Shown one piece after another: positions 10,758 to 23,361 of a stretch of DNA of 64,000 bases. The stretch comes from Devosia oryzisoli (GTDB lineage: Bacteria; Pseudomonadota; Alphaproteobacteria; Rhizobiales; Devosiaceae). Where the stretch lies: positions 682,001-746,000 of the forward strand of contig NZ_JACYFU010000002.1 of assembly GCF_014837245.1 (NCBI RefSeq). Direction: 5' to 3'. How positions within the stretch are numbered: the stretch's first letter is position 1; the number at the start of each line of letters is the position of its first letter. The position numbers and the translations under genes were made by a program. The notes under the pieces were generated by a model that ran no database searches, had not been told where the DNA came from, and saw nothing but the letters and a program-made list of their open reading frames with translations.

Positions 10758-11528
10758 ATGACTCCCACGATGCGACAGGCCCAGATCGTCGAGATGGCGC
10801 GCCAGCGCGGCGAAGTCAGCGTCGAGGATCTCGTGGCCGCCTTTGCGGTGACACCGCAGACCATCCGCAGGGACCTCAACAGCCTTTGCGATGCCGGTAC
10901 CCTCAAGCGCACGCATGGCGGGGCCATGCACCCCTCGGGCGTCGAAAACCTCGAATACGAGGCCCGGCGGCGCATGGCGACGGCGGAGAAGCAGGCCATC
11001 GGGCAGGCTGCCGCGGCCATTGTTCCTGACAACGCCTCGCTCTTCATCAATATCGGCACCACCACCGAAGCCGTCAGCCAGGCCCTGAGCCAGCACCACG
11101 GATTGATGGTGATCACCAACAATATCAATGTCGCCAACCGCCTGCGCACCGTTCCCACGGTCGAGGTGGTGATTGCCGGGGGCGTGGTGCGCGCATCCGA
11201 TGGTGGCATCGTGGGCGAGGCGGCGGTGGATTTCATCCGCCAGTTCAAGGTGGATTTTGCCATTATCGGCGTGTCGGCCATCGACCCGGATGGGGCGCTG
11301 CTCGACTTCGATTTTCGGGAGGTGAAGGTGGCGCAGGCGATCATCGCCAATGCACGCCATGTCATCGTCGTATCGGACAGCACGAAATTTTCGCGCACCG
11401 CTCCGGTGCGCATCGGCCATCTGAGCCAGGCTCAGACCTTCATCACCGACACGTGCCCCCACGCCTCCATTCGCACGCTTTGTGCCGAGGCAGGGGTGCG
11501 GCTCATCGAAACGACCCCTTCTGCCTAA
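10758..11528 (+). CDS. DeoR/GlpR family transcriptional regulator
   Basis: This 256-residue regulator has a winged helix-turn-helix at about residues 5-57 (VSVEDLVAAFAVTPQTIRRD) and a DeoR sensor domain from about 75 (DNASLFINIGTTTEAVSQAL). The sensor domain binds phosphorylated sugars or related metabolites. The first segment of the DeoR recognition pattern (RxxxIxxxL-like) is present but modified. It lies between the M81 gene and the hydratase-like gene on the same strand and probably represses this cluster. The start is ATG 10758; its leader is strongly structured. Confidence 0.92.
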   Translation: MTPTMRQAQIVEMARQRGEVSVEDLVAAFAVTPQTIRRDLNSLCDAGTLKRTHGGAMHPSGVENLEYEARRRMATAEKQAIGQAAAAIVPDNASLFINIGTTTEAVSQALSQHHGLMVITNNINVANRLRTVPTVEVVIAGGVVRASDGGIVGEAAVDFIRQFKVDFAIIGVSAIDPDGALLDFDFREVKVAQAIIANARHVIVVSDSTKFSRTAPVRIGHLSQAQTFITDTCPHASIRTLCAEAGVRLIETTPSA

Positions 11529-11538
11529 GGACCAGCAC

Positions 11539-12279
11539 ATGATCGACAGCCTCTCCGCCCTCGCCCAAGCCCTGATCGCCGCCCACGATGGCGGACCGCT
11601 GGTGGCGGACGTCCCCGATCATCTGGTCCCCGCTGACCTCGATGCGGTCTACGCGCTCCAGGATGCCATCATCGAACGGACCGGCCCCGTCGGGGGCTGG
11701 AAAGTCGCTGCGGGCGTCGGCGACCCGCCGATCTGTTCGCCGATCCCCAAGAACCGCTATTTCGACAATCGGGCCAGCATCGACGGCAAGCGCCACCGGT
11801 TCGTCATTGCGGAACTCGAGATCGCGGTGATGCTGGGGGCCGACATCGCCGCGGGTTCCGACCGCGCCACCATCGCCGAGGCCATCGGATCGATCCATCC
11901 GGCTCTCGAACTGATCGGCAGCCCCTTCCCCGACCGGGACGCCATGGCGCGCAATCTGCAACTGGGGGACCTGCAGAGCAATGGGGCCGTCGTCGTCGGA
12001 CCGGCGGTTGCCGACACGATTACCGGCAAGCTGGAGACCCTCCCGGCGGCGCTCTGGCACGATGGCGCCGAGGCCAAGGCGGTCGCCAACGGAGCCAGCT
12101 GGACAACGACGCTCGACGCCCTCGCCTGGCTTGCCGGCCACGCAGCCAGCCGCGGCCTGCCGCTCAGGGCCGGCCAGATCATCATCACCGGGGCGCGGCC
12201 CGTCGCGCCGATCGGTGAGGCCACAACCATCGAGGGGCGGGTCGAGGGGTACGGCGTGGTGAGTGCCACGATCGGCTAG
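11539..12279 (+). CDS. 2-keto-4-pentenoate hydratase / fumarylacetoacetate hydrolase family protein
   Basis: This 246-residue enzyme resembles MhpD-type hydratases in length and in the segments GGWKVAAG, ELEIAVMLGAD and the late ITGARPVAPIGEA. The family usually binds Mg and hydrates or cleaves 2-keto acids in aromatic and sugar-acid degradation. I start it at ATG 11539; a longer frame begins inside the DeoR gene. The stop codon overlaps the stop of the convergent chemotaxis gene, TAG against TAG on opposite strands. It closes the plus-strand cluster, so the pathway probably makes an unsaturated or 2-keto acid. Confidence 0.87.
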   Translation: MIDSLSALAQALIAAHDGGPLVADVPDHLVPADLDAVYALQDAIIERTGPVGGWKVAAGVGDPPICSPIPKNRYFDNRASIDGKRHRFVIAELEIAVMLGADIAAGSDRATIAEAIGSIHPALELIGSPFPDRDAMARNLQLGDLQSNGAVVVGPAVADTITGKLETLPAALWHDGAEAKAVANGASWTTTLDALAWLAGHAASRGLPLRAGQIIITGARPVAPIGEATTIEGRVEGYGVVSATIG

Positions 12280-14033
12280 AGCATGAAGTCACCCAGATTG
12301 GCGTCGTCATTGGCCGGCTCGGGTTCTTCGAGCGCGGTCGTGGCAAGGTGCCCGAAGAGCCGCGCATGCACCTGTCGCTCCGCCTGCATCGTGTAGGTCT
12401 TGCGCAGACTTTCGAGCAGGGCGGCAAGACCTGCCGACAGGCTCTCTGGCGGTGGCTCGGGCGAAAGGCCGGCAATGCGCAGCGCAATGTCGTCAAGAGC
12501 TTCGGCCATGGCGGATTGGCCCGACAGGCCGCGCGCCGCGCGATCGAGCAGGGCAATGACCTTTGGCCCATCGGCGTTGAGACGCGCCAGTGCAGCCGCG
12601 AGGCGCTTGTCGAGGCTGGTCAGAAGCTCGAGCGCCTGGCTGGCCTGCTGCTCGAGCTGGCCGACCTGTCCGGCGCCGTCTGCCCTGGCTGCGGCGCCAA
12701 ACGACGCTGCAAGCGTAGAGGACTGATCGAGGCGCGCCATCGCCGCCTCGGCAGCCACCACGGTTTCACTGGTCAATTCGCGCAGTTGCGTCGCAATCAC
12801 CGTGAGGGAGGCGCCGCGCGGCCCGAGCTGGGCGCAACGCACTGCCGCATTGAGGCTGACGAGGCGCATGTTCGCCTCGATGTCCTGCACCGCCGCAACG
12901 TGCCCGAGCAGAACGCCCACCGTGTCGTGCACCGCGCCGGCGACAGCTTCGAGCTTGCCGCGCTCCAGCTCAAAATCGCCCAGGATGGCAATGGCGCTGC
13001 GCAACTGCGCACTCAGGCCCGCCATGATCGAGCTCTTGCCGTTCTTGTCGCCATAAAGATCGCGGCTGCGCGCCATGATGACGCTGGCATCGGCTGCAAG
13101 GGCCGAGAGGGCCTCCTCGGCCTCCGCGACCTCCATGCCGAAGCTCGATGCTGCGTCGCTCAGTTGCGCCTGTTGCAGGGCCGACAGCGCCGCCCGGGCG
13201 GGCGCACGCTCGTTCACGTCGAGGTCGACGCCCATCGCACTGGCGTGATCGAGCGTATCTGCCAGGGCAAGCAGGCCCGCTTCGACATGTTCAAGCCGCT
13301 GCCTTGTGGCGTCCCCCACCTGCAAGGCCATGACGGCGCTGCCGATACGGGCCACAATCTGGCGCGATACGCGACCGGTTTCGGCGCTGCCGTCGACAGC
13401 GGCAACCCGCTGGCGGTCCAAAGCCTCGAGGGTCTCCGAGAGGCTCGCGGCAAGGGTCGAAAGGGTGCTGGCGTGCTGGCTTTCAAAGCGGGCGCGCTGG
13501 CTGGCGGCCTTGCCCACCTCCACCGTCAGCTGGCGATAGACCTGCGCAAATTCCTGGATGGTGCGGTTGGCCGTATCGGAGAGGGTAGCAATGTCGGTCG
13601 TGAAGACGTCGAAGTCGTCGCTGTCTCCGACGATGCCGGCGGCCGTTACCCGGGCATTGACCGAGACGATGCCCATCATCTTCACGGTCCGCCGCAGTTC
13701 GCTGATCGGGGCATTGGCCGCTGCAACGACCTCCACGAGCTTGTCGAGGTCGGCCTTTTCCTGGCCAAAAGCGCGCGCGAGATCGGCGGCGCGCTCCGCC
13801 ACGTCGCGCAGGCGGGCGCTGGCGTCGAGTACGTCCTCGCCTTCCAGGGCCTCGGGCAGCGCTTCGAATTCGCGGGTCAGGCTGTTGAGCAGCGCCGCGC
13901 CTTCGGTGAGGCGCTCGCCGACGCCGACAAAAGCCGTCTCGATGCGGTCGCGCGGCGCGGCGATGGCGCGGGCCAGATCGCGGACAGGAGTGCCGGCCGT
14001 GGACGGTGACCGGGCGGAAGCGGTGGCGATCAT
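12276..14033 (-). CDS. Soluble chemotaxis coiled protein with CheZ-like DxxxQ motif and two MCP-tip-like segments
   Basis: This 585-residue protein has no membrane segment and is mostly long Ala-rich helices. Two segments resemble degenerate signalling tips of methyl-accepting proteins: about 117-153 (SVNARVTAAGIVGDSDDFDV) and about 386-422 (VSLNAAVRCAQLGPRGASLT). Between them the sequence LQVGDATRQRLEHV (about 237-250) holds a D-x-x-x-Q pattern with the spacing of the CheZ phosphatase site. No cheZ, cheC, cheX or cheD is visible in the cluster. The ATG overlaps the cheB stop (ATGA), so the gene belongs to the che operon. A CheY-P phosphatase or soluble signalling scaffold is possible; function is inferred. 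Confidence 0.75.
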   Translation of the reverse strand: MIATASARSPSTAGTPVRDLARAIAAPRDRIETAFVGVGERLTEGAALLNSLTREFEALPEALEGEDVLDASARLRDVAERAADLARAFGQEKADLDKLVEVVAAANAPISELRRTVKMMGIVSVNARVTAAGIVGDSDDFDVFTTDIATLSDTANRTIQEFAQVYRQLTVEVGKAASQRARFESQHASTLSTLAASLSETLEALDRQRVAAVDGSAETGRVSRQIVARIGSAVMALQVGDATRQRLEHVEAGLLALADTLDHASAMGVDLDVNERAPARAALSALQQAQLSDAASSFGMEVAEAEEALSALAADASVIMARSRDLYGDKNGKSSIMAGLSAQLRSAIAILGDFELERGKLEAVAGAVHDTVGVLLGHVAAVQDIEANMRLVSLNAAVRCAQLGPRGASLTVIATQLRELTSETVVAAEAAMARLDQSSTLAASFGAAARADGAGQVGQLEQQASQALELLTSLDKRLAAALARLNADGPKVIALLDRAARGLSGQSAMAEALDDIALRIAGLSPEPPPESLSAGLAALLESLRKTYTMQAERQVHARLFGHLATTALEEPEPANDDANLGDFML

Positions 14034-15148
14034 GTGCCGGCCCTCTTGGTGGTGGCAGCGTGGGCGAATAGCGCGATTTCCTGCGCCATGCGCGAGAGCG
14101 GCAGCACGCGGGCAGCGGCGCCGCGCGCAATGGCTTCCTTAGGCATGCCGAAAACGACCGAACTGTCTTCGTCCTGCGCGACGGTATGGGCGCCCATCTG
14201 CCGCATTTCGAGAAGCCCCCGGGCCCCATCGTCGCCCATGCCGGTCAAGAGCATGCCGAGCCCATTGCGGCCTGCGGCCTGGGCGACGGAGCGAAAGAGA
14301 ACGTCGACCGACGGGCGATGGCGCGAGACGTGCGGACCCTCGATGATCTTCACGCTGTAGCGCGTTCCGTTGCGCACCAGTTGCATGTGCAGATTGCCAG
14401 GGGCCAGGAGGACCTGACCGGGCAGCACAAGGTCGCCGTCCTCGGCTTCCTTGATGCGCAGGGCGCAGGTGCTGTCGAGGCGGCGGGCGAAGGCGGTGGT
14501 GAATTTTTCGGGCATGTGCTGGACGATGAGGATGCCCGGCGTGGCCGCGGGAAGCGCATCGAGCACTTCGCGCAGCGCCTCTGTGCCGCCGGTGGAGGCG
14601 CCGATGGCGATCAGGGGCTCGGTGGCCGGCATGCGTTCGGAGAGCGACTGGCGGCGCGTCTCCGACAGCGGCGGCAGGATGGCGTCCGCCGTCAGCTTGG
14701 CCTCGACGGTCATGGCGGGAGCAGCCTTGCGAATGCCTTTCAGTTTGGCATGGGCAGCCGCCTTGGCCGCGTCGCAGATGCGCATCCGCGATTCCTGGAG
14801 GAATTGGGCGGTGTCGACGCGCGGCTTGGCCACCACGTCCACCGCTCCGGCTTCGAGCGCCTCGATAAACGTGTCTGAGCCGGCCTGCGCGAAGCTCGAG
14901 CAGATGACGACGGGGATGGGCCGTTGCGACATGATCTTGCGCAGAAAGGTCAGCCCGTCCATGCGGGGCAGTTCGATATCGAGGAACATCACGTCCGGCA
15001 CCTCCTGGCGGATGCGCTCGACTGCCACATAGGGATCGGCGGCCGTGCCCATGACCTCGAGATCGGGATCGGCCGCGATGATGTCGGAAAGCGCCAGACG
15101 AACCGAGGCGCTGTCATCGACGATGAGGACGCGAATTTTCTCGCCCAT
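14030..15148 (-). CDS. cheB: Chemotaxis protein-glutamate methylesterase/deamidase CheB
   Basis: This 372-residue enzyme removes methyl groups from receptors to reset the chemotaxis array. The N-terminal receiver has acidic residues at 11-12 and the phosphoacceptor Asp57 (MFLDIELP). The C-terminal methylesterase has Ser185 in GASTGG, His211 in VQHMPEKF and Asp307 in TGMGDDGA. The linker between them (about 130-175) is long and Ala/Lys-rich. The gene starts nine bases after cheR and overlaps the following gene by four bases. All catalytic residues are present. Confidence 0.97.
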   Translation of the reverse strand: MGEKIRVLIVDDSASVRLALSDIIAADPDLEVMGTAADPYVAVERIRQEVPDVMFLDIELPRMDGLTFLRKIMSQRPIPVVICSSFAQAGSDTFIEALEAGAVDVVAKPRVDTAQFLQESRMRICDAAKAAAHAKLKGIRKAAPAMTVEAKLTADAILPPLSETRRQSLSERMPATEPLIAIGASTGGTEALREVLDALPAATPGILIVQHMPEKFTTAFARRLDSTCALRIKEAEDGDLVLPGQVLLAPGNLHMQLVRNGTRYSVKIIEGPHVSRHRPSVDVLFRSVAQAAGRNGLGMLLTGMGDDGARGLLEMRQMGAHTVAQDEDSSVVFGMPKEAIARGAAARVLPLSRMAQEIALFAHAATTKRAGT

Positions 15149-15157
15149 GGCGTGGCC

Positions 15158-16030
15158 TCAGAGTTTCTGGAACACGGCCGGAGCAACCTGCCGCACCGCC
15201 ACATCAGTGCCGATCATCGACTCCGAGTGGCCAAGTAGAAGATAGCCGCCGGGTCGTAAATGAGCGGTGAGCCGCGTGATGACTTTTGTCTGATCCGCCT
15301 TGTCGAAATAGATCAGCACGTTGCGCAGGAAGATGATGTCGACGTCCCGGTCATAAGGATAGCTCTGGTCCATGAGGTTGAGACGCTGGAACTGCACGTG
15401 CCGGCGCAATTCGGGAACGATGCGCACCTCGGGGCGTGTTCCGGGGCGGCGGGAGAACATCAGGTAGCGCGACTGGAGCGCGGGCGGAACGGGCGCGATC
15501 TGCTCGGCCGGATAGATGGCGCGGCGGCCCTGCTCCAGCACGTCGGTGGAAATGTCGGTGCCCAGCACGGCGAAGCGGAAGCTTCGGCCGCGGGTCACCA
15601 TGTCGGCCAGCAGCATGGCGATGGAATAGGCCTCGGCACCGGTGGAACTGGCGGCGCTCCACACCTTGAGCAGCGGCTGGCGATCGGTCCGGCCAGCCAG
15701 CAGCGTCGGCACGAGCGTTTTTTCCATGATCTCGAAATGCTCGGGCTCGCGGAAAAAGTCGGTCTTGTTGGTGGTGACGGCGTTGATGAGGTGGGGGCGC
15801 TCCTGTTCGAGCCCGTTCTGGCGGAAAAGGTAGTCGCCATAGGCTTCGAAGCCTGCCAGGCCCAGGGCGCGCAGGCGCCGGCGCAGGCGCCCCTCGACCA
15901 TGAGGCGCTTGCCCGGCGGCAAGCGGATACCGACCTCCTGCCCGATCAGCGCCGAGATGCGCTGGAAATCGGTCGGGGTGAGGTGATCGTCTTCGTCGAG
16001 GCGCTGCGGGGCGCGGGCAAGGGCGGGCAA
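15158..16030 (-). CDS. cheR: Chemotaxis protein methyltransferase CheR
   Basis: This 290-residue enzyme methylates receptor glutamates using S-adenosylmethionine. The N-terminal helical domain (about 15-80) is followed by the SAM-binding segment (WSAASSTGAEAYSIAM, near 135-150). The segment DIIFLRNVLIYFD near 230 is a family hallmark. The start is TTG 16030, supported by GGAG nine bases upstream; no ATG is in a better position. It lies between cheW and cheB in the operon, and with CheB it forms the adaptation pair for the encoded MCP. Confidence 0.95.
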   Translation of the reverse strand: MPALARAPQRLDEDDHLTPTDFQRISALIGQEVGIRLPPGKRLMVEGRLRRRLRALGLAGFEAYGDYLFRQNGLEQERPHLINAVTTNKTDFFREPEHFEIMEKTLVPTLLAGRTDRQPLLKVWSAASSTGAEAYSIAMLLADMVTRGRSFRFAVLGTDISTDVLEQGRRAIYPAEQIAPVPPALQSRYLMFSRRPGTRPEVRIVPELRRHVQFQRLNLMDQSYPYDRDVDIIFLRNVLIYFDKADQTKVITRLTAHLRPGGYLLLGHSESMIGTDVAVRQVAPAVFQKL

Positions 16031-16086
16031 GAAAGTGTTCTCCGAAACGCAGGACGCCGGCCAGCAGGACGCCGGCCGGCGAGTGA

Positions 16087-16551
16087 TCAGGCGGCGCGGC
16101 CTGCGGCAGGCACGGCGTTCCCGAGGAGCCGGTCGAGATCGAGAACCGTCACGAACTGGCCGTTGCGCCGTCCGATGCCCTCGATACAGTGACCGCTCCA
16201 GCCCGCGCTGATGGCCGGGGCCGGATCGAGCGCATCGCTATCGAGCACGGTCACTTCGAAGACGCGGTCGGCGCGCAGGCCGAGCACGACCGGTCCGTGT
16301 GCCGTCTCCACAGACAGCACCACGATCCGAGTGTTTTCCGTGTCGATGGCCGCGCCCATTCCCAGGGTCAGCCGCAGGTCCAGCACCGGTACGCCTTCGC
16401 CGCGCACGTCGATCATGCCCAGCAGGTTGTCCGGCGCGCGCGGCAGGCGGGCGATGGGACGCATGTCGAGGATTTCCTGCACCCGGGTGACGGGCACCGC
16501 GAAGATTTCCTCCGCGACGCCCAGGGTCACATATTGCTGGCGCTCGGCCAT
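16087..16551 (-). CDS. cheW: Chemotaxis coupling protein CheW (second copy)
   Basis: This 154-residue SH3-like adaptor links receptors to CheA. It shows the usual CheW pattern: YVTLGVAEEIFAVPVTRVQE at the start, the IARLPRAPDNLLGMIDVRG receptor/kinase contact, and VLDLRLTLGM. It lies 11 bases downstream of the MCP stop codon. Its sequence differs clearly from the other CheW at 18653-19150, so it is not a recent duplicate. The pair may load different receptors. Confidence 0.95.
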   Translation of the reverse strand: MAERQQYVTLGVAEEIFAVPVTRVQEILDMRPIARLPRAPDNLLGMIDVRGEGVPVLDLRLTLGMGAAIDTENTRIVVLSVETAHGPVVLGLRADRVFEVTVLDSDALDPAPAISAGWSGHCIEGIGRRNGQFVTVLDLDRLLGNAVPAAGRAA

Positions 16552-16562
16552 GAACGGGCCTC

Positions 16563-18656
16563 CTATGCGGCGCCGCGGCGGCTGAACTCGCCGTCGAGAT
16601 CGTCGTGGCCGTCATCGCCGAGGTCGAGGTCGAAGCCGCCACCAGTGCGTGACTTGCCGGCCGGAGCCGGCTTGCGCGGAGCCATGTGCGGCGCCTTGGC
16701 GAGAATGGCTTGCTTCAGATCATTGGCCGGACGGGCGACCGCGACAGAGGTTTCCATGCCGCTGCCGTCGACGCGGAAGTACCCTATCGCCGCCTGCAGC
16801 TGTTCGGCCTGGCTGGCCAGCTCCTCGGAGGTTGCCGACATCTCTTCGGCGGCCGAGGTGTTCTGCTGGGTCACCTTGTCGAGTTGCTGGATGGCCGTGT
16901 TGATCTGGGCGGCACCGGCATTCTGCTCACGCGAACCGGCCGAGATTTCTTCGACGAGTTCGGCCGTGCGCTGGATGTCGGGCACCAGCCTGGAGAGCAT
17001 CTCGCCGGCCGACTGGGCGGCCTTGACCGTTGTGCCGGAAAGGGTCGAGATTTCGGCGGCGGCCGCCTGGCTGCGCTCGGCGAGCTTGCGCACTTCCGAA
17101 GCCACGACGGCAAAGCCGCGGCCATGTTCGCCGGCCCGGGCCGCTTCCACAGCCGCGTTGAGAGCGAGCAGATCGGTCTGGCGGGCGATTTCCTGCACCA
17201 CCATGATCTTTTCGGCGATCGTCTGCATGGCGCTGACGGCATTGTTGACCGCTTCGCCCGAGGCGATGGCATCGGCCGCGGACTGGCGGGCGATCTTCTC
17301 AGTCTGGGAGGCGTTGTCGGCCGACTGCTTGATGGTGGCGGCCATCTCTTCCATGGAGGCAGATGCTTCTTCGGTCGAGGAGGCCTGTTCAGTGGCGCCC
17401 TGGCTCAGCTGTTCGGCGGTGGCCGACATTTCCTGCGAGCCAGCGGCAACGTTGCGGGCCGCCGCGGTCACTTCGCCGACCACGTTGCGCAGCTTGGTGG
17501 TCATGGCATTGAGCGACTTGATGAGATCGCCCACCTCGTCGTCGCCCTTGATCTGGGCGGAGGCATTGAGATCGCCGGCAGCCACTTCGTCGGCGAGGCG
17601 AACGGCGCTGGAGAGAGCCCGCGAAATCGAGAGTACGATCCAGGTGGCCGCGACCAGAGCGATCAGGGCGGAGCCGATCAAGAGGCCGATCAGCAGCGTC
17701 ATCGAGCTTTGGTAAACTTCTGCCGCGTGCTTCTGGGCCTCATCCATGACGGCTGTGTTCAGATCGATAATTGACTGCAGGATTTCATCCGCCTCAAGTC
17801 GCAGGTCGTTGACGCTGTTCATCTGCTGCAGCGCGAAGTAGTCGCCGTTGTCCATCGATACAGCAACCGCCTTATCCATCGCTGCAACCATGGCCTCGTA
17901 CGCGTCGCGAGCTGCATTGAACAAGGCCATTTCAGAGGGCGGCATGGTCCTTTGAAGGTCAGGCAGCCGTTCTGCATTGGACTGCACGCCCGACAGATAA
18001 TCTGCATGCCACTTTTCCTGCAGCTCTCGATCCTGCGAGGCCGCAAGCAATACGTTGCGCTGCTGACGGAACATATCCGAGCCAGTCAGCAACATCTCTG
18101 TAGCTGCTCGATATGCCGGGAAAGCAGACAGATCGCCGCCTTCGACCTTCCGCTGCAACGTGCTGCGTATATTGGCCATGGACTCCTCAAAGACGCCTAG
18201 GGAGTCGCTGCCATCACTGCGGCTGATGGCCAGGGCCGTGGCGTCGGAATTCTTGAGCGTCAACTCTTCGCCCTTCTGCACGGCAGCATAAAGTTCCTCC
18301 ACCTTCGCCTTGAAGGCGGGCAATTTCTCGCGCACAGCCGGATTGAGTGCATTGCCATCAAGGAAGGCATGCCCATCGACGAGCTCCTGATAATCCTCGT
18401 GGAGCTTCTCTGTGTAGCTTTCTTTTTCGATCTGATCCGTAGTCAGAATTTGGGCGCGCACCCTTGAGCCCAAGCTCTCAAGGCTCGTTTGCATCTGCGA
18501 TGAGCGAATTAGATTTGCCGACCGGACATCGACGATGGTTTGCAGCTCGGAGTTGAGCGCATCCAAATTCTGCACGGCGATGAACATACTGACGCCCGAG
18601 AGGGCAACGACGGTCGTAAACACCGCCGCCAGCTTGGTCTTGATGGTTAGTCTCAC
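16563..18656 (-). CDS. Methyl-accepting chemotaxis protein, transmembrane
   Basis: This 697-residue receptor begins with a membrane segment at about 8-28 ([20 protein letters not shown]). A periplasmic helical domain of about 310 residues follows, then a second membrane segment near 345-368, a HAMP domain ([20 protein letters not shown]) and a long signalling coiled coil. The hairpin tip is intact ([20 protein letters not shown]). The C-terminus is short and acidic ([15 protein letters not shown]). The start is GTG 18656, overlapping the upstream cheW stop (GTGA) with AAAGGT upstream. No known ligand-binding motif is recognised in the sensor. Confidence 0.94.
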
Positions 18657-19150
18657 AGCGATGACCTTTCTTCTGTCGTTGCTGCGGCCGGCGTCCTGCC
18701 GTCCGTTGTGTCGAAAATCCGTTCCATGTCCGGAATGATGATGAAGCCGCCGTTGCGCTTGCCGATCCCCTTGACGAAGTCGGGGCGCCAACGCATGCCC
18801 ACTCGCGGGGCTTCCTCGATCGAGGCGGCCTCGATGTCGGTGACGTCATGAACCTTGTCGGCCAGGATACCGGCAATGGTTGGCTCACCGTCGATGATGA
18901 CTTCCATGACGACGATGCGGGTATCTTGGTCTGGCTCCGGGCGCTGCATGCCGAACATGACGCGCAAGTCTGCCAGCGGCACGACGCGCCCCCGCACGTT
19001 GATCAAGCCGCCGACGAAGGGGAGCGCGTTGGGGACCTCGGTAATGGGCACGAGATCAAGGATCTCGCGCACCTGAGAGGCCTCGACGGCGAACAGCTCG
19101 TCCTGGAGGCGGATGGTCAGCGCCTTCATCGGCGCTTCAGAGGCGCTCAT
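18653..19150 (-). CDS. cheW: Chemotaxis coupling protein CheW (first copy)
   Basis: This 165-residue adaptor has the CheW core ([40 protein letters not shown]). Its stop and start overlap the neighbouring mcp and cheA genes by four bases on each side, so cheA, cheW and mcp are probably made in a fixed ratio. It should bridge the CheA P5 domain and the receptor tips. Confidence 0.95.
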
Positions 19151-21165
19151 GCCGCCCTCCCGTTGAGGTTGCGGTCCACGTAGGACTGGCCGGAAGCGAC
19201 CAGATGCGCGGTGTCGAGGATTAGCGCCACGCTGCCATCGCCCAGGATGGTCGCCCCGGAGAACGACTTGATGTCCGAGTGGAGCTTGGAGAGCTGCTTG
19301 ATGACGGTCTGGTTGTTGCCGATGATCTGGTCGACCACGAGCCCCACCCGCCCTTCGCCGGAGGAGACGATCACGACCTTCTGGTGCAGTTCACGCGGCG
19401 CGGTGATGCCGAAGACCTCCCGCAGCCGCAGGTAGGGCACGAGACTGCCGCGGATGTCGAGGAAGTTGCGGCCCTTCGCCTGCCCTTCAAGGCCCTCGGG
19501 CAGCTCGACACATTCTTCGACTGCGGCAAGGGGAATGGTGTAGCGGCCGGTGCCCACGCGCACGAGCATGCCATCGATGATCGCGAGCGTCAGCGGCAGG
19601 CGCAGGGTCATGGTCGTCCCCTCGCCCGGCCGGGTCGACACCTCGATGGTGCCGCGCAACCCATCGATGGTGCGCTTGACGACATCCATTCCGACACCGC
19701 GACCGGAGAGCGAGGTCACTTCCTTGGCGGTCGAAAAGCCCGGGGCGAAGATCAGCTGATGCAACTCGCCATCAGTCAGCTTGGTTTCGGGGGTGATGAG
19801 CCTGTTCTCCTCGGCCTTGGCGCGGATGCGGGCGGCGTCGAGCCCAGCGCCATCGTCACTGACCGAGATGGCGACTTCGGCGCCGGAATAGACCGCGGAC
19901 AGCCGCACCTGCCCCTTGGCCGGCTTGCCGGCGGCGGCACGGCGCTCGGCCGTCTCAAGGCCATGGTCCACCGAATTGCGGATCAGGTGCACCAGCGGGT
20001 CGGCGAGACGCTCGATCATGGTCTTGTCGAGCTCGGTTTCCTCGCCGGTGGTGATGAAGTCGATGGGCTTGCCTAACTCGCCCGAAAGATCGTGGACCAG
20101 CCGCCTGAAGCGGCCGAACAGGCTGCCGATGGGCACCATGCGGATGCCCATGGTGGTGTCGCGCAGGCCCGAGGACAGGCGCTCGAGTTCTTCGGCGATG
20201 GTCTTCAATGCCGTGTCCGAACTGAGCGCGGCAATCTGGCTGAGGCGCGCCTGGGCGATGACCAGCTCCCCAACGCGGTCCATCAACTCGTCCAGTCTTT
20301 CCGCGGGAACCCGCAAGGAGCTGGCGGCTGGCTTGTCCGTTTCCGCCTTCTCCTGCGCCTTTGCACGCGGTGGAACCGGCACTGCGGCAGGTTCCTGGGC
20401 TCTTGGCGCCGCGGCCAGCTGGGTATGCTCTTCGAGGTCGATCGCGGCTGCGGGAGCTCTTTCCAGCGGCACTAGACTGAGTTCCATGCTGTCGCGCAGG
20501 AACAGGAAGACGTCGTCGATCGCGCTCGTCGGGTCGTCGGCCTCGATGTCCACCTGCCAGCCGATCTGCGGCACCTCGGGGTCGAGGATATCGAGATCGG
20601 GAATTCGGTCCGTCAGTGCAGTAACAGTGATCGGGCCGATTTGCGCGAGTTCATCGAGCAGCAGCAGCGGGTTGGTGCCGTAGACGAGGGCGTCCGATGG
20701 CAGGAAGAATGTCAGCCGCCAGAGGCGCGTGGTGTCGACTTTCTGCGCGGGCGTGCGCTCGGCGACTGGCGACGGCGCCACGGGTTCAACAGGCGTTCCT
20801 TCGACCACTTGTCGCAACTGGGACAGGATGACGTCGCCCCCCGTGATCCGTCTGTCCGGGTTTTCAATCAGGCGGTGGATGTGATCCTTGGCGTCAAGCG
20901 CCACGCCGATCAGGGCCTTGGTCGCCTCGCTCTGGCCCTTGCGCACCCGGTCAAAGGCCGTTTCGAACTCGTGCACGAATTCGGCGACGGCGGTAAACCC
21001 GAACATCGCGCCCGAGCCCTTTATAGTATGGAGGGCCCGAAAGGCGGAGTTGATGAGGTCGCCATTGCCGGGATCCTGCTCAAGGTCGAGCAGCCCCGCT
21101 TCGAGCAGATCGAGCAGCTCGCGCGCCTCCTGGCGGAATGTCTCGGTGGGGTCGGAGATGTTCAT
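19147..21165 (-). CDS. cheA: Chemotaxis histidine kinase CheA
   Basis: This 672-residue kinase phosphorylates CheY and CheB in response to receptor state. Domains in order: HPt with the phospho-His at residue 46 (ALHTIKGSGAMFGF); a variable P2-like region to about 290; a dimerisation domain; an HATPase domain with N box HLIRNSVDHGLE, G1 DDGAGLD and G2 GRGVGMDVV; and a C-terminal CheW-like domain (IPLAAVEECVELP). All catalytic boxes are intact. The gene overlaps cheY upstream and cheW downstream by four bases each. Confidence 0.97.
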   Translation of the reverse strand: MNISDPTETFRQEARELLDLLEAGLLDLEQDPGNGDLINSAFRALHTIKGSGAMFGFTAVAEFVHEFETAFDRVRKGQSEATKALIGVALDAKDHIHRLIENPDRRITGGDVILSQLRQVVEGTPVEPVAPSPVAERTPAQKVDTTRLWRLTFFLPSDALVYGTNPLLLLDELAQIGPITVTALTDRIPDLDILDPEVPQIGWQVDIEADDPTSAIDDVFLFLRDSMELSLVPLERAPAAAIDLEEHTQLAAAPRAQEPAAVPVPPRAKAQEKAETDKPAASSLRVPAERLDELMDRVGELVIAQARLSQIAALSSDTALKTIAEELERLSSGLRDTTMGIRMVPIGSLFGRFRRLVHDLSGELGKPIDFITTGEETELDKTMIERLADPLVHLIRNSVDHGLETAERRAAAGKPAKGQVRLSAVYSGAEVAISVSDDGAGLDAARIRAKAEENRLITPETKLTDGELHQLIFAPGFSTAKEVTSLSGRGVGMDVVKRTIDGLRGTIEVSTRPGEGTTMTLRLPLTLAIIDGMLVRVGTGRYTIPLAAVEECVELPEGLEGQAKGRNFLDIRGSLVPYLRLREVFGITAPRELHQKVVIVSSGEGRVGLVVDQIIGNNQTVIKQLSKLHSDIKSFSGATILGDGSVALILDTAHLVASGQSYVDRNLNGRAA

Positions 21166-21530
21166 GCCCCGGTGACCTTCTTGATGACGGCCAGAAGCTG
21201 GTCCTGCTTGAAGGGCTTCACGATCCAGCCGGTGGCGCCCGCTTCCTTGGCCTGACGCTTGAGGTCCTCATCGGACTCCGTGGTCAGGAGGATGATCGGG
21301 ATGCCCTTGCTGGAGGGGTGCTGGCGGTATTTGCGGATGAATTCGATGCCGTTGAGGACCGGCATGTTGAGGTCGGTCAGCACGGCGTGGACGGTATTGG
21401 TGGTGGCCTTGTCGTAGCCCTCGGCGCCGTTGGCGGCCTCGATGACGTCGAGCCCGGCACCCGTAAGGGTCATGGCCACCATCTGGCGGATGGACGCGGA
21501 GTCGTCGATGGTGAGGATGGTCTTGCTCAT
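21162..21530 (-). CDS. cheY: Chemotaxis response regulator CheY
   Basis: This 122-residue single-domain receiver has Asp9-Asp10, phosphoacceptor Asp53 (VLTDLNMPVLNG), the switch Thr (LLTTES) and Lys105 (WIVKPFK). It should carry the signal from CheA to the flagellar motor or act as a phosphate sink. It is the second gene of the operon, three bases after the STAS gene. No second cheY is in the cluster. Confidence 0.96.
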   Translation of the reverse strand: MSKTILTIDDSASIRQMVAMTLTGAGLDVIEAANGAEGYDKATTNTVHAVLTDLNMPVLNGIEFIRKYRQHPSSKGIPIILLTTESDEDLKRQAKEAGATGWIVKPFKQDQLLAVIKKVTGA

Positions 21531-21533
21531 GGC

Positions 21534-21863
21534 TCAGGCCCTTGGCAGCGGTTCGGAAACGGGTGACCAGAAGGATGCCTGCGCCTGGCCCTCGGCCAGA
21601 AAGCCGGCCGCCTGGAGCACATCGGCCAGCGCTGCCCCAAGGGGAGCCAGCATCACCACGGACTTGTCCAGTTCGGCCGCCTTGTTGCGTGCCGAAAGAA
21701 GCGACTGAACGGTCGTCAGGTCCGCCGCCGTCACCGTCTGCGTGTCGATGCCGATCCGATCGTGATGTGAAATTGTCTCCCGCAGACTTGCCAGCACGTT
21801 CTGTGCCGATCTGATGCCTGCGTCAGCGCTCAAGACGAGCGTGTGGTATCGTTCATCGGCCAT
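21534..21863 (-). CDS. STAS-domain protein at the head of the che operon
   Basis: This 109-residue protein has the STAS (anti-sigma antagonist-like) pattern: a strand 'DRIGIDTQTVTAADLTTVQ' followed by a helix and 'SVVMLAPLGAALADVLQAAG'. STAS proteins are small protein-interaction modules. The residue where SpoIIAA is phosphorylated (Asp-Ser) is Ala-Ala-Asp-Leu here, so regulation by Ser phosphorylation is unlikely. It directly precedes cheY, the place occupied in other rhizobial che operons by a small accessory protein that helps CheA bind CheY. A similar accessory role is inferred from position only. Confidence 0.82.
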   Translation of the reverse strand: MADERYHTLVLSADAGIRSAQNVLASLRETISHHDRIGIDTQTVTAADLTTVQSLLSARNKAAELDKSVVMLAPLGAALADVLQAAGFLAEGQAQASFWSPVSEPLPRA

Positions 21864-22311
21864 GTGCGTGGCCGGCCTGAAGGGTGATCTGGTCTGACAT
21901 TCTGTCTTTCTACCGTTGAAAGTGGGGTGGGAACCGGTAGGCGTTTATGCGTGTCCGTACGCTTGCTACGTTTGACTCTATTGCTGTTTCTGCGGCATCG
22001 TATTCCCATCCGACGCAACACTATAGTTTCATCTCCAGCTTAAACATTAGTTACAGCATGGAACCCGTGATGATTTTTGTTGAAGAGATTTCAAAACAGT
22101 ATTCAGCAGTAAAAGTAACATACGGCGACGCAAGCATTCGGTTGATTCCAGCCTGACGGGCTGGGCGGCAGAATCCGGCCATCAAGACTCAGAATCCAAT
22201 GCGCAAGACTCTCCAGTAGAACACGCTGGATTCACTATGCGCATTACGGTGGCCCGCATCTGGTCGCGGCCGAGGTCCGGAATAGTGATGACGAGAGAAA
22301 GTCGCTTCGGT
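21864..22311. other. AT-richer intergenic region upstream of the che operon (448 bp)
   Basis: Composition changes sharply between about 21940 and 22150, which is much richer in A and T than the flanks. It must carry the promoter of the minus-strand che operon, but I cannot assign a convincing -35/-10 pair. A plus-strand frame of 69 codons (21947-22156) exists but has no ribosome site and no family resemblance, so I do not call it a gene. No RNA gene is recognised. Confidence 0.5.
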
Positions 22312-23361
22312 TCAGAAGTCAGCAGCGTCCGCAACGGGGGCCGACTGCATCAGCGCCATTATTTCCGGCCATTTGGCGCGGAAGGCCGTCACGCATTTGG
22401 GATCGAAGTGACTGCCGCTGGAGCGAACGATCTCGGCGTAGGCTTTTTCGATCGGCCAGGCGGCCTTGTATGACCGTTCAGAGCACAGCGCGTCGAAGAC
22501 ATCCGCGATAGCGACGATGCGCGCTTCAATGGGAATGTCGGTCTGTGACAATTGATCAGGGTAGCCGCCGCCGTCCCAGCGTTCGTGATGGCTCTGGGCG
22601 ATCAGTTCGGCGGTCCGGATCAACTCGCTGTCACCGTTGCCGAGGATACGAGCACCAATGGTCACGTGCTCGCGCATCTTGGCCATTTCGTCGGGCGACA
22701 GTTTGCCCGGCTTGGTCAGGATAGCATCCGCAATTCCGATCTTGCCGATGTCGTGCAGGGGCGCAGCCAGATAGATCATGCGGCAGCGCTCGGCAGAGAG
22801 GCCTACGCCTTCGGCAATCATCCGGCTGATCAGCGCGACGCGCGACACATGTTCACCCGTGTCCCCGTCGCGATACTCGATGGCACGGCCGAGCCGGGAG
22901 ATGATCTCCTCCTCCCGGGCGAGCAGGTGTGCTGTGGCGCGCTCGACTTCGCGTGCCAACCAGTTGGCGCGATCCGCCAATTCCACCTGCGCCTGGCGCA
23001 GCGCCAGAAGATTGGCCGCGCGCGCCTGGAGCTCAGTCGGATCGAACGGCTTGTGGAGGAAATCGGTAGCACCCGCCTTGATGGCCTCGATCCGAACGCT
23101 CGCGTCGAGGTCGGACGTGACCATGACGATGGGCACGATGTGATAGGCCGGGCGAGCGCGGAGCGCGGCCGTAAAGGCCACGCCGTCCATCTCGGGCATG
23201 ATGTTGTCAACCACAACCAGGTCGAACTGTGTCTGGGCGCATTTTTCGAGCGCCTCCACGGGATTGAGGCAGAGCTCAACCTCGCCGATGACGGCCTCAC
23301 GCAGGATGGCAGCGATCAATGCCAGGCTCGACCGGCTGTCATCGACAATGAGCAGACGCAT
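22312..23361 (-). CDS. Response regulator with HD-GYP cyclic-di-GMP phosphodiesterase domain
   Basis: This 349-residue protein has an N-terminal receiver with Asp7-Asp8, phosphoacceptor Asp52 and Lys104. A short helical linker follows, then an HD-GYP domain from about 150. The HD pair is His203-Asp204 (LHDIGKIG), and the GYP signature lies at 266-268 (HHERWDGGGYP). HD-GYP enzymes hydrolyse cyclic-di-GMP and so favour swimming over attachment. No partner kinase gene is adjacent. It shares orientation with the che operon but is separated from it by 448 bases, so it is probably a separate transcript. Confidence 0.93.
   Translation of the reverse strand: MRLLIVDDSRSSLALIAAILREAVIGEVELCLNPVEALEKCAQTQFDLVVVDNIMPEMDGVAFTAALRARPAYHIVPIVMVTSDLDASVRIEAIKAGATDFLHKPFDPTELQARAANLLALRQAQVELADRANWLAREVERATAHLLAREEEIISRLGRAIEYRDGDTGEHVSRVALISRMIAEGVGLSAERCRMIYLAAPLHDIGKIGIADAILTKPGKLSPDEMAKMREHVTIGARILGNGDSELIRTAELIAQSHHERWDGGGYPDQLSQTDIPIEARIVAIADVFDALCSERSYKAAWPIEKAYAEIVRSSGSHFDPKCVTAFRAKWPEIMALMQSAPVADAADF

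Follow-up and report, generated by a model that had tools for sequence, protein, structure and literature searches.

How is phosphorylated CheY (CheY-P) removed in a chemotaxis (che) system that encodes no CheZ, CheC or CheX? To our knowledge this is in many cases unexplained. The question is raised by a che cluster in a 64,000-nucleotide stretch of Devosia oryzisoli (contig NZ_JACYFU010000002.1, positions 682,001 to 746,000; hereafter the window), where the nine cluster proteins include, by Pfam, no CheZ, CheC, CheX or CheD and no second stand-alone CheY, as the first-pass annotation of this sequence had stated. Frames and Pfam neighbours also bear out its placing of one gene, here called X, as the last of the che operon. 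The 585-residue product was proposed to be a CheZ-like phosphatase hidden in a soluble protein resembling chemoreceptors (MCPs). The genome (G000; 3.68 Mb, 12 contigs) has two CheA genes, and we propose, with a probability of roughly 0.6, that X is a CheZ-like CheY-P phosphatase of the second che system, built on a chemoreceptor scaffold.

The putative catalytic residues are Asp241 and Gln245, which lie in the segment DATRQ (residues 241–245) between two degenerate MCP tips and show the D-x3-Q spacing of CheZ. This spacing alone is at chance level (1.7 occurrences expected in X by composition), and a second one, DGAGQ, is found at 452. The annotation had staked its proposal on the invariance of the two residues among homologues, and both are identical in all 50 aligned family sequences (the X of the window and 49 found by homology, L001, which is the window itself, having been dropped), down to 40% identity. 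Moreover, the most invariant block of this unbiased set is the motif itself, V-M-x-L-Q-V-G-D-x-T-R-Q-R-x-E-H, with Leu237 in 49/50 sequences. In a wider alignment of 81 X sequences (from which L103, a broken copy, L134, the window again, and the misaligned L137 were left out), 8 of the 13 invariant columns fall in residues 238–248, but this set is not an unbiased test of conservation, since 78 of its members come from loci fetched by peptide patterns and all 78 carry QVGD[AS]TRQR, 33 having matched only that peptide. Two further sets, A2 and A3, contain 69 of 79 sequences and 51 of those 69, respectively. The motif was not demanded in a class-wide profile search, and its three matches outside the window genome retain the core (LQIGDITRQRLEH, LQAGDLTRQRLEH and LQFQDRTKQRLEH), keeping D-x-T-x-Q-R-L-E-H while neighbouring residues change (GDITRQRLEH in L135, GDLTRQRLEH in L136 and QDRTKQRLEH in L137). 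The D-x-T-x-Q-R of X is also present in alphaproteobacterial CheZ, as FQD[IL]TGQR in 13 of 15 proteins (it was unread for L054 and L145, and the L054 block was seen in a separate reading), and D-x-T-x-Q is common to X and Escherichia coli CheZ (b1881; FQDLTGQ). The counterpart of the pair in the second half of X is not conserved (Asp in 4/81 at column 507, Gln in 1/81 at column 511).

Both tips flanking the motif, as noted in the annotation, are real: they are centred on Asn126 and Asn395, and the two halves of X align with each other with the tips in register (hhalign probability 92%, E 5e-7). X has no Pfam or NCBIfam match above cut-off and no CheC or CheX domain in Pfam; its MCPsignal match (residues 380–431) is below threshold, with 12.4 bits against a cut-off of 34.6. 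A search of PDB sequences returned nothing at E < 0.07. AlphaFold2 predicts long helices both for full-length X (mean predicted local distance difference test score, pLDDT, 90.6; predicted template modelling score, pTM, 0.72) and for half 1 alone (91.9 and 0.63), with a helix break at residue 237 in the former model and none in the latter. Long helical hairpins are thus predicted, and the predicted fold of half 1 is that of a chemoreceptor hairpin and not specifically that of CheZ: its best Foldseek match has E 3.5e-6, and all 11 matches at E ≤ 0.001 are chemoreceptors. The full-length model had no match at E ≤ 0.001. Structure matches with high Z included unrelated helical bundles (toxin pores, TTYH, PI3K, SMC) and were not used as evidence.

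A receptor-like fold could mean that X is a non-catalytic, receptor-derived scaffold whose tail binds CheY-P and whose tips bind CheA/CheW, acting as a sink or localiser, with Asp241 and Gln245 in a structural or binding role. The fold of half 1 agrees with such a role, as does tip 2 (residues 381–421), which is nearly as conserved as the motif in the family and whose match to ordinary MCP tips has E 1e-11. However, the Glu (N+4) and Arg (N+7) pair of a normal tip, which we take to be the trimer contacts, as in Tsr, is absent from both tips in 81/81 X (Arg alone occupies N+7 of tip 2 in 29/81), and a match to CheZ at all of D, T, Q and R is not what a structural role alone would predict. We consider a purely non-catalytic X unlikely.

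The CheZ-like motif is also found in a class of receptors for which we coin the name MCP-Z. The pattern [LF]QFQDxxxQ matched 39 of 299 Pseudomonadota genomes, in 44 listed places versus 4 for the reversed pattern (hand count of the table). Among 30 pattern loci fetched, 14 encode MCPs, in which the distance from tip to motif, with no spacing filter applied, is 111 residues in 13 and 113 in one; in X, Asn126 and Leu237 are likewise 111 residues apart. One match (L204) was a chance hit in a peptide deformylase. With near-identical copies removed and a spacing filter of 100–125, the class comprises 19 distinct receptors of 360–441 residues, 18 from the pattern search and one, L137, from the profile search. 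The tip carries Glu and Arg in 19/19, partly by construction, as the tip expression favours these residues; 17/19 have an N-terminal hydrophobic segment and 18/19 end in [LIMF]F. In 13 of 20 fetched surroundings the MCP-Z gene adjoins cheY-cheA; in L192 it follows cheB, as X does, and L186 and L193 have no che gene in the surroundings; the other four are the loci of the small proteins described below (L200, L201 and L205) and L204. L137 (393 residues) has an N-terminal hydrophobic region, a canonical tip, the motif segment LQFQDRTKQRLEHV, a segment YTMKEERVVHD similar to one in X and the tail NIELF, and its locus reads STAS-like frame (our own label), L137, cheY, cheA. The receptors of L187–L192, L194–L199, L202, L203 and L139 are short MCPs and mostly lie beside cheY-cheA.

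Hairpin 1 of X matches MCP-Z (hhalign 97%, E 1.6e-11) much more strongly than ordinary MCPs cut alike (42%, E 2.7e-4), and the match of half 1 to the C-terminal part of MCP-Z persists when the letters used in the search are masked (82%, E 1e-5); hairpin 1 is thus specifically related to this class. Among the 18 genomes with MCP-Z or a small protein of the kind described next, 16 encode CheZ elsewhere and each of the 18 has at least two CheA, so that a phosphatase site built into MCP-Z would serve a separate system. The small proteins (L200:8339-8869, L201:10274-10783 and L205:3-536; 170–178 residues) carry LQFQDxxxQ without a tip, end in SIDLF, SIELF and DITLF, and have no Pfam match above cut-off; their genes lie beside cheY in L200 and L201, and in L205 in the cluster but some 3 kb from cheY. 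They are possible stand-alone phosphatases. Among the open-licence PubMed Central (PMC) matches listed, read by title and abstract opening, none reports a DxxxQ phosphatase site in an MCP, subscription papers being mostly outside the scope of that search.

The C-terminus is a further point of resemblance to CheZ. Beyond the YTMQAERQVH segment, a linker of 13 to 74 residues (counted by script from the ER of YTMxxER) leads to a short tail, NLGDFML in the X of the window and LDDIFF, LDDVLF or DDDGLF in others; pLDDT falls below 50 at residues 568–571 and 583–585. One X of 666 residues (L040:3134-5131) has a far longer acidic linker and the same type of tail, DLDDIFF. An acidic-hydrophobic C-terminus was found in 77/81 X, 17/19 MCP-Z and 7/15 CheZ, but in none of the 18 other MCPs encoded at these loci, and a stricter pattern matches 55/81 X versus 91 of 2796 open frames of 250 residues or more. 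CheZ of sister genera ends in IDELF or IDAMF, and that of E. coli in DDLLDSLGF. We could rule out that the tail is a CheR pentapeptide: the sequence that we take to be the consensus of this receptor tail is present in 11 of the 18 other MCPs and in 0/81 X, 0/19 MCP-Z and 0/15 CheZ. In CheZ the C-terminal helix is involved in CheY binding, according to an excerpt of PMC7750401.

A different substrate should also be considered, namely the receiver domain of CheB, in which case X would be a CheZ-like phosphatase that mainly sets adaptation rather than output. The start of X overlaps the stop of cheB (ATGA, 14030–14033), cheB is the nearest upstream che-like frame in 97 of 103 X loci (the remaining six also have che neighbours), and the MCP-Z gene of L192 follows cheB as well. 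Nevertheless, cheY is the neighbour in the 13 MCP-Z surroundings mentioned above and of the small LQFQDxxxQ protein in two more, and the tail of X resembles the CheY-binding end of CheZ; CheB as the main substrate seems to us distinctly improbable.

Of 136 family genomes, 65 encode a nearly full-length X and 20 more have weak matches only. A scan of named genomes with the peptides QVGD[AS]TRQR and NAAV[KR]CAQ gave 79 loci with X, in Devosia, Pelagibacterium, Rhodoplanes, Roseomonas, Falsiroseomonas, Rhodobacteraceae, Sphingomonas, Novosphingobium, Rhodoblastus and other groups, the near loci overlapping with the family set. The class-wide profile search, in which at most four candidates were scored per genome, matched 4 of 337 genomes (our own included) at E ≤ 1e-8, and X therefore seems to be uncommon in the class. 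A reading of X as a soluble MCP that is merely degenerate, either in decay or serving an unrelated function, with DxxxQ there by coincidence, is very improbable, for although this spacing is expected 1.7 times by chance and the MCPsignal match is sub-threshold, near full-length X persists in nearly half of the family genomes and in other alphaproteobacterial groups, and the motif is the most invariant block of the unbiased set. A second copy of X in a Devosia ginsengisoli metagenome-assembled genome (L103, apparently G023:C4:2955-4627) is broken by in-frame stops and adjoined by pieces of cheB and cheR, in a decaying extra che cluster. The X of a record titled Arthrobacter sp. TPD3018 (L131) has the same motif and tips as that of Sphingomonas aquatilis (L128) and an almost identical tail; the record title is probably wrong.

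CheZ, CheC and CheX were not found anywhere in the window genome, CheD having been searched for in the cluster only. Two or more CheA are encoded in 84 family genomes, of which 62 have X, 14 have CheZ, none has both and 8 have neither; 3 of the 43 genomes with one CheA have X and one has CheZ, and 2 of the 9 without CheA have CheZ. These counts point to X and CheZ as alternatives in a second che system. The annotation had held CheY-P removal to be otherwise unexplained here, which is not supported as stated: the genome has another che cluster (L138) with cheY, cheA, cheW, mcp, cheR and cheB as well as an additional frame resembling CheY, hence two CheY-like frames, and no match to X or CheZ.

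Several observations weigh against a CheZ-like role for X on a receptor scaffold. In CheZ a motif AXXFQ directly precedes DXXXQ, as given in an excerpt of PMC7750401, but X lacks the F-Q: the corresponding residues are A236-x-x-V239-G240, with Ala in 37/50 and Val and Gly in 50/50 family sequences. The Pfam CheZ family (PF04344) was not among the matches of X at E up to 1; hhalign of X against CheZ was insignificant (probability 0.3–0.8%, E 0.07–0.22); a CheZ hidden Markov model (HMM) matched 0/69 X at E 0.01 (Z=1000; best 0.017), although at E up to 10 it matched 35/69 X versus 0/18 ordinary MCPs; and the 50 matches listed for each structure search include no CheZ chain. Profile comparison thus leaves direct X–CheZ homology unproven, with an hhalign probability below 1%. 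The tail pattern, in turn, is unmet by 8/15 CheZ. The complementarity of X and CheZ represents nine genera and not 76 independent cases, and as a general rule mutual exclusion holds in the family and fails beyond it, since CheZ is also present in 10 of 26 distant genomes (25 with X and one with L137; 26 of 33 genomes were used, namely those of 23 of the 30 loci L104–L133 plus G178, G186 and G193). In a check of CheA number, all 27 genomes covered (our own included) have two or more. Hairpin 2 matches MCP-Z (E 5.5e-12) and ordinary MCPs (E 1.7e-10) about equally well and may be either a duplicate of hairpin 1 or an ordinary receptor hairpin; of the internal duplication suggested in the annotation, the similarity of the halves stands, but tandem duplication of an MCP-Z is weakened.

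The link between MCP-Z and CheZ has its own difficulty. MCP-Z aligns with CheZ at 73% probability (E 3e-5), versus 0.2% for the C-terminal parts of ordinary MCPs, but with the search letters masked the probability drops to 1.5% (E 0.035), the register being unchanged. Implanting these letters in ordinary MCPs gives 0.2% against CheZ, in another register. The profile match between MCP-Z and CheZ is thus mostly due to the motif by which the class was found, and beyond it only a weak extra similarity may be left. Sub-threshold Pfam CheZ matches, subject to the same selection bias, were seen in three of six MCP-Z scanned (E 0.0008, 0.0097 and 0.045) and at six MCP-Z places of a further scan (E 2e-5 to 0.007). 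The MCP-Z that the CheZ HMM matches best is L137 (E 7e-4 at Z=1000), a receptor identified independently of the pattern.

On these grounds X is not a member of the CheZ family, as it misses the Pfam model, the F-Q and profile similarity, and CheZ identity in the sense of family membership does not survive. What does stand of the proposed phosphatase is the conserved Asp/Gln pair, the CheZ-like tail, che neighbours in 103/103 loci and a related receptor class; X has the catalytic letters of CheZ in a helix, resembles it in the tail and belongs to the same pathway, and it likely works like CheZ. From the sequence comparisons we infer that X is a phosphatase, that CheY is its substrate and that the tail binds CheY. 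In such a mechanism the C-terminal tail would catch CheY-P of the second che system, and Asp241 and Gln245, presented on a long helix, would extend into the active site of CheY and position a water molecule for hydrolysis of the aspartyl phosphate. The scaffold would be that of a chemoreceptor and not of CheZ, hairpin 1 being related to MCP-Z, which has its DxxxQ on the return helix of the signalling hairpin and ends in a CheZ-like tail; X would have shed its membrane segments along with the residues of a normal tip and would contain two MCP-like hairpins per chain, hairpin 1 with the catalytic pair and hairpin 2 without it, followed by the tail. Any packing of the hairpins into a four-helix bundle would be a further presumption. 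More tentatively, and with somewhat less than even confidence, we suggest that MCP-Z receptors carry their own CheY-P phosphatase site and a CheY-catching tail, that X is a soluble descendant which gained a second receptor hairpin by duplication or fusion, leaving hairpin 1 catalytic and hairpin 2 before the tail, and that CheZ may share this origin.

The features are listed in Table 1. All genes lie on the minus strand, in the order STAS-cheY-cheA-cheW-mcp-cheW-cheR-cheB-X, and probably form an operon. The STAS-domain gene stands at its head. The mcp frame overlaps the upstream cheW, so that the true mcp start is probably later. Between cheW and mcp of the other che cluster (L138:4107-8977) stand YkuD and VIT1 genes, which are read from the opposite strand. 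An Rfam scan of window positions 11000–22500 gave no match, and a plasmid search gave none for the one MCP-Z tested and two weak ones for X.

Table 1 Features of the che cluster and of protein X (positions in the window).
Feature	Position	Strand	Evidence or remark
X, two-hairpin protein, 585 residues, ATG start	12276..14033	-	last gene of the probable che operon
Low-confidence linker and acidic-hydrophobic tail, residues 557-585, ...NLGDFML	12279..12365	-	tail pattern in 77/81
YTMQAERQVH segment, residues 547-556, before the linker	12366..12395	-	R553 in 81/81, E552 in 80/81
Degenerate MCP tip 2, residues 378-425, N395	12759..12902	-	half alignment, sub-threshold MCPsignal
LQVGDATRQRLEH, residues 237-249, putative CheZ-like site with D241 and Q245	13287..13325	-	D, T, R, Q, R, E, H invariant in 50/50
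Degenerate MCP tip 1, residues 109-150, N126	13584..13709	-	half alignment
cheB	14030..15148	-	Pfam match; stop codon overlaps X start
cheR	15158..16030	-	Pfam match
cheW	16087..16551	-	Pfam match
mcp (open frame)	16563..18791	-	Pfam 4HB, HAMP, MCPsignal
Second cheW	18653..19150	-	Pfam match
cheA	19147..21165	-	Pfam match
cheY, sole stand-alone CheY of the cluster, proposed substrate	21162..21530	-	Pfam match
STAS-domain protein	21534..21863	-	Pfam match

X and MCP-Z offer a testable answer to the question of CheY-P removal, with named residues and a named tail. If the answer is right, chemoreceptors can hold a phosphatase beyond regulating the kinase, so that receptor, kinase control and signal termination would be found in one molecule, usually encoded beside cheY-cheA, and whether CheZ arose from receptor hairpins or alongside them would become addressable by sequence.

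Compared with known systems, X resembles CheZ in D-x-T-x-Q, in the linker and acidic-hydrophobic C-terminal tail and in its partnership with a che system, but it has 585 residues and two MCP-like hairpins, whereas CheZ has 210–237 residues, and each chain carries a single conserved catalytic pair despite its two hairpins. CheT of Sinorhizobium meliloti (Agbekudzi 2024, via an excerpt of PMC12654446) is a DXXXQ protein with a CheZ-like predicted structure, which is encoded in a che gene cluster and dephosphorylates one of two CheYs; by this description it is like X an alphaproteobacterial DXXXQ protein from a che cluster, but one from a rhizobial system with two CheYs, CheS and CheD, and the excerpt mentions no MCP tips. 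With MCPs (PF00015) X shares the predicted fold of half 1, the tip asparagine and the match of hairpin 2 to ordinary tips; it differs in falling below the Pfam cut-off, in lacking the Glu/Arg pair in either tip and the CheR pentapeptide, and in that no N-terminal membrane segment was seen in the X of the window (the highest 19-residue hydropathy, 1.48, is at 364; values of 1.6–1.81 occur in 21/81 X, mostly at the tips). The MCP-Z receptors share with X the 111-residue spacing, the tail, the che neighbours and the match to hairpin 1, and they differ in having a single hairpin with a canonical tip, in most cases an N-terminal hydrophobic segment and, as in CheZ, F-Q before the aspartate.

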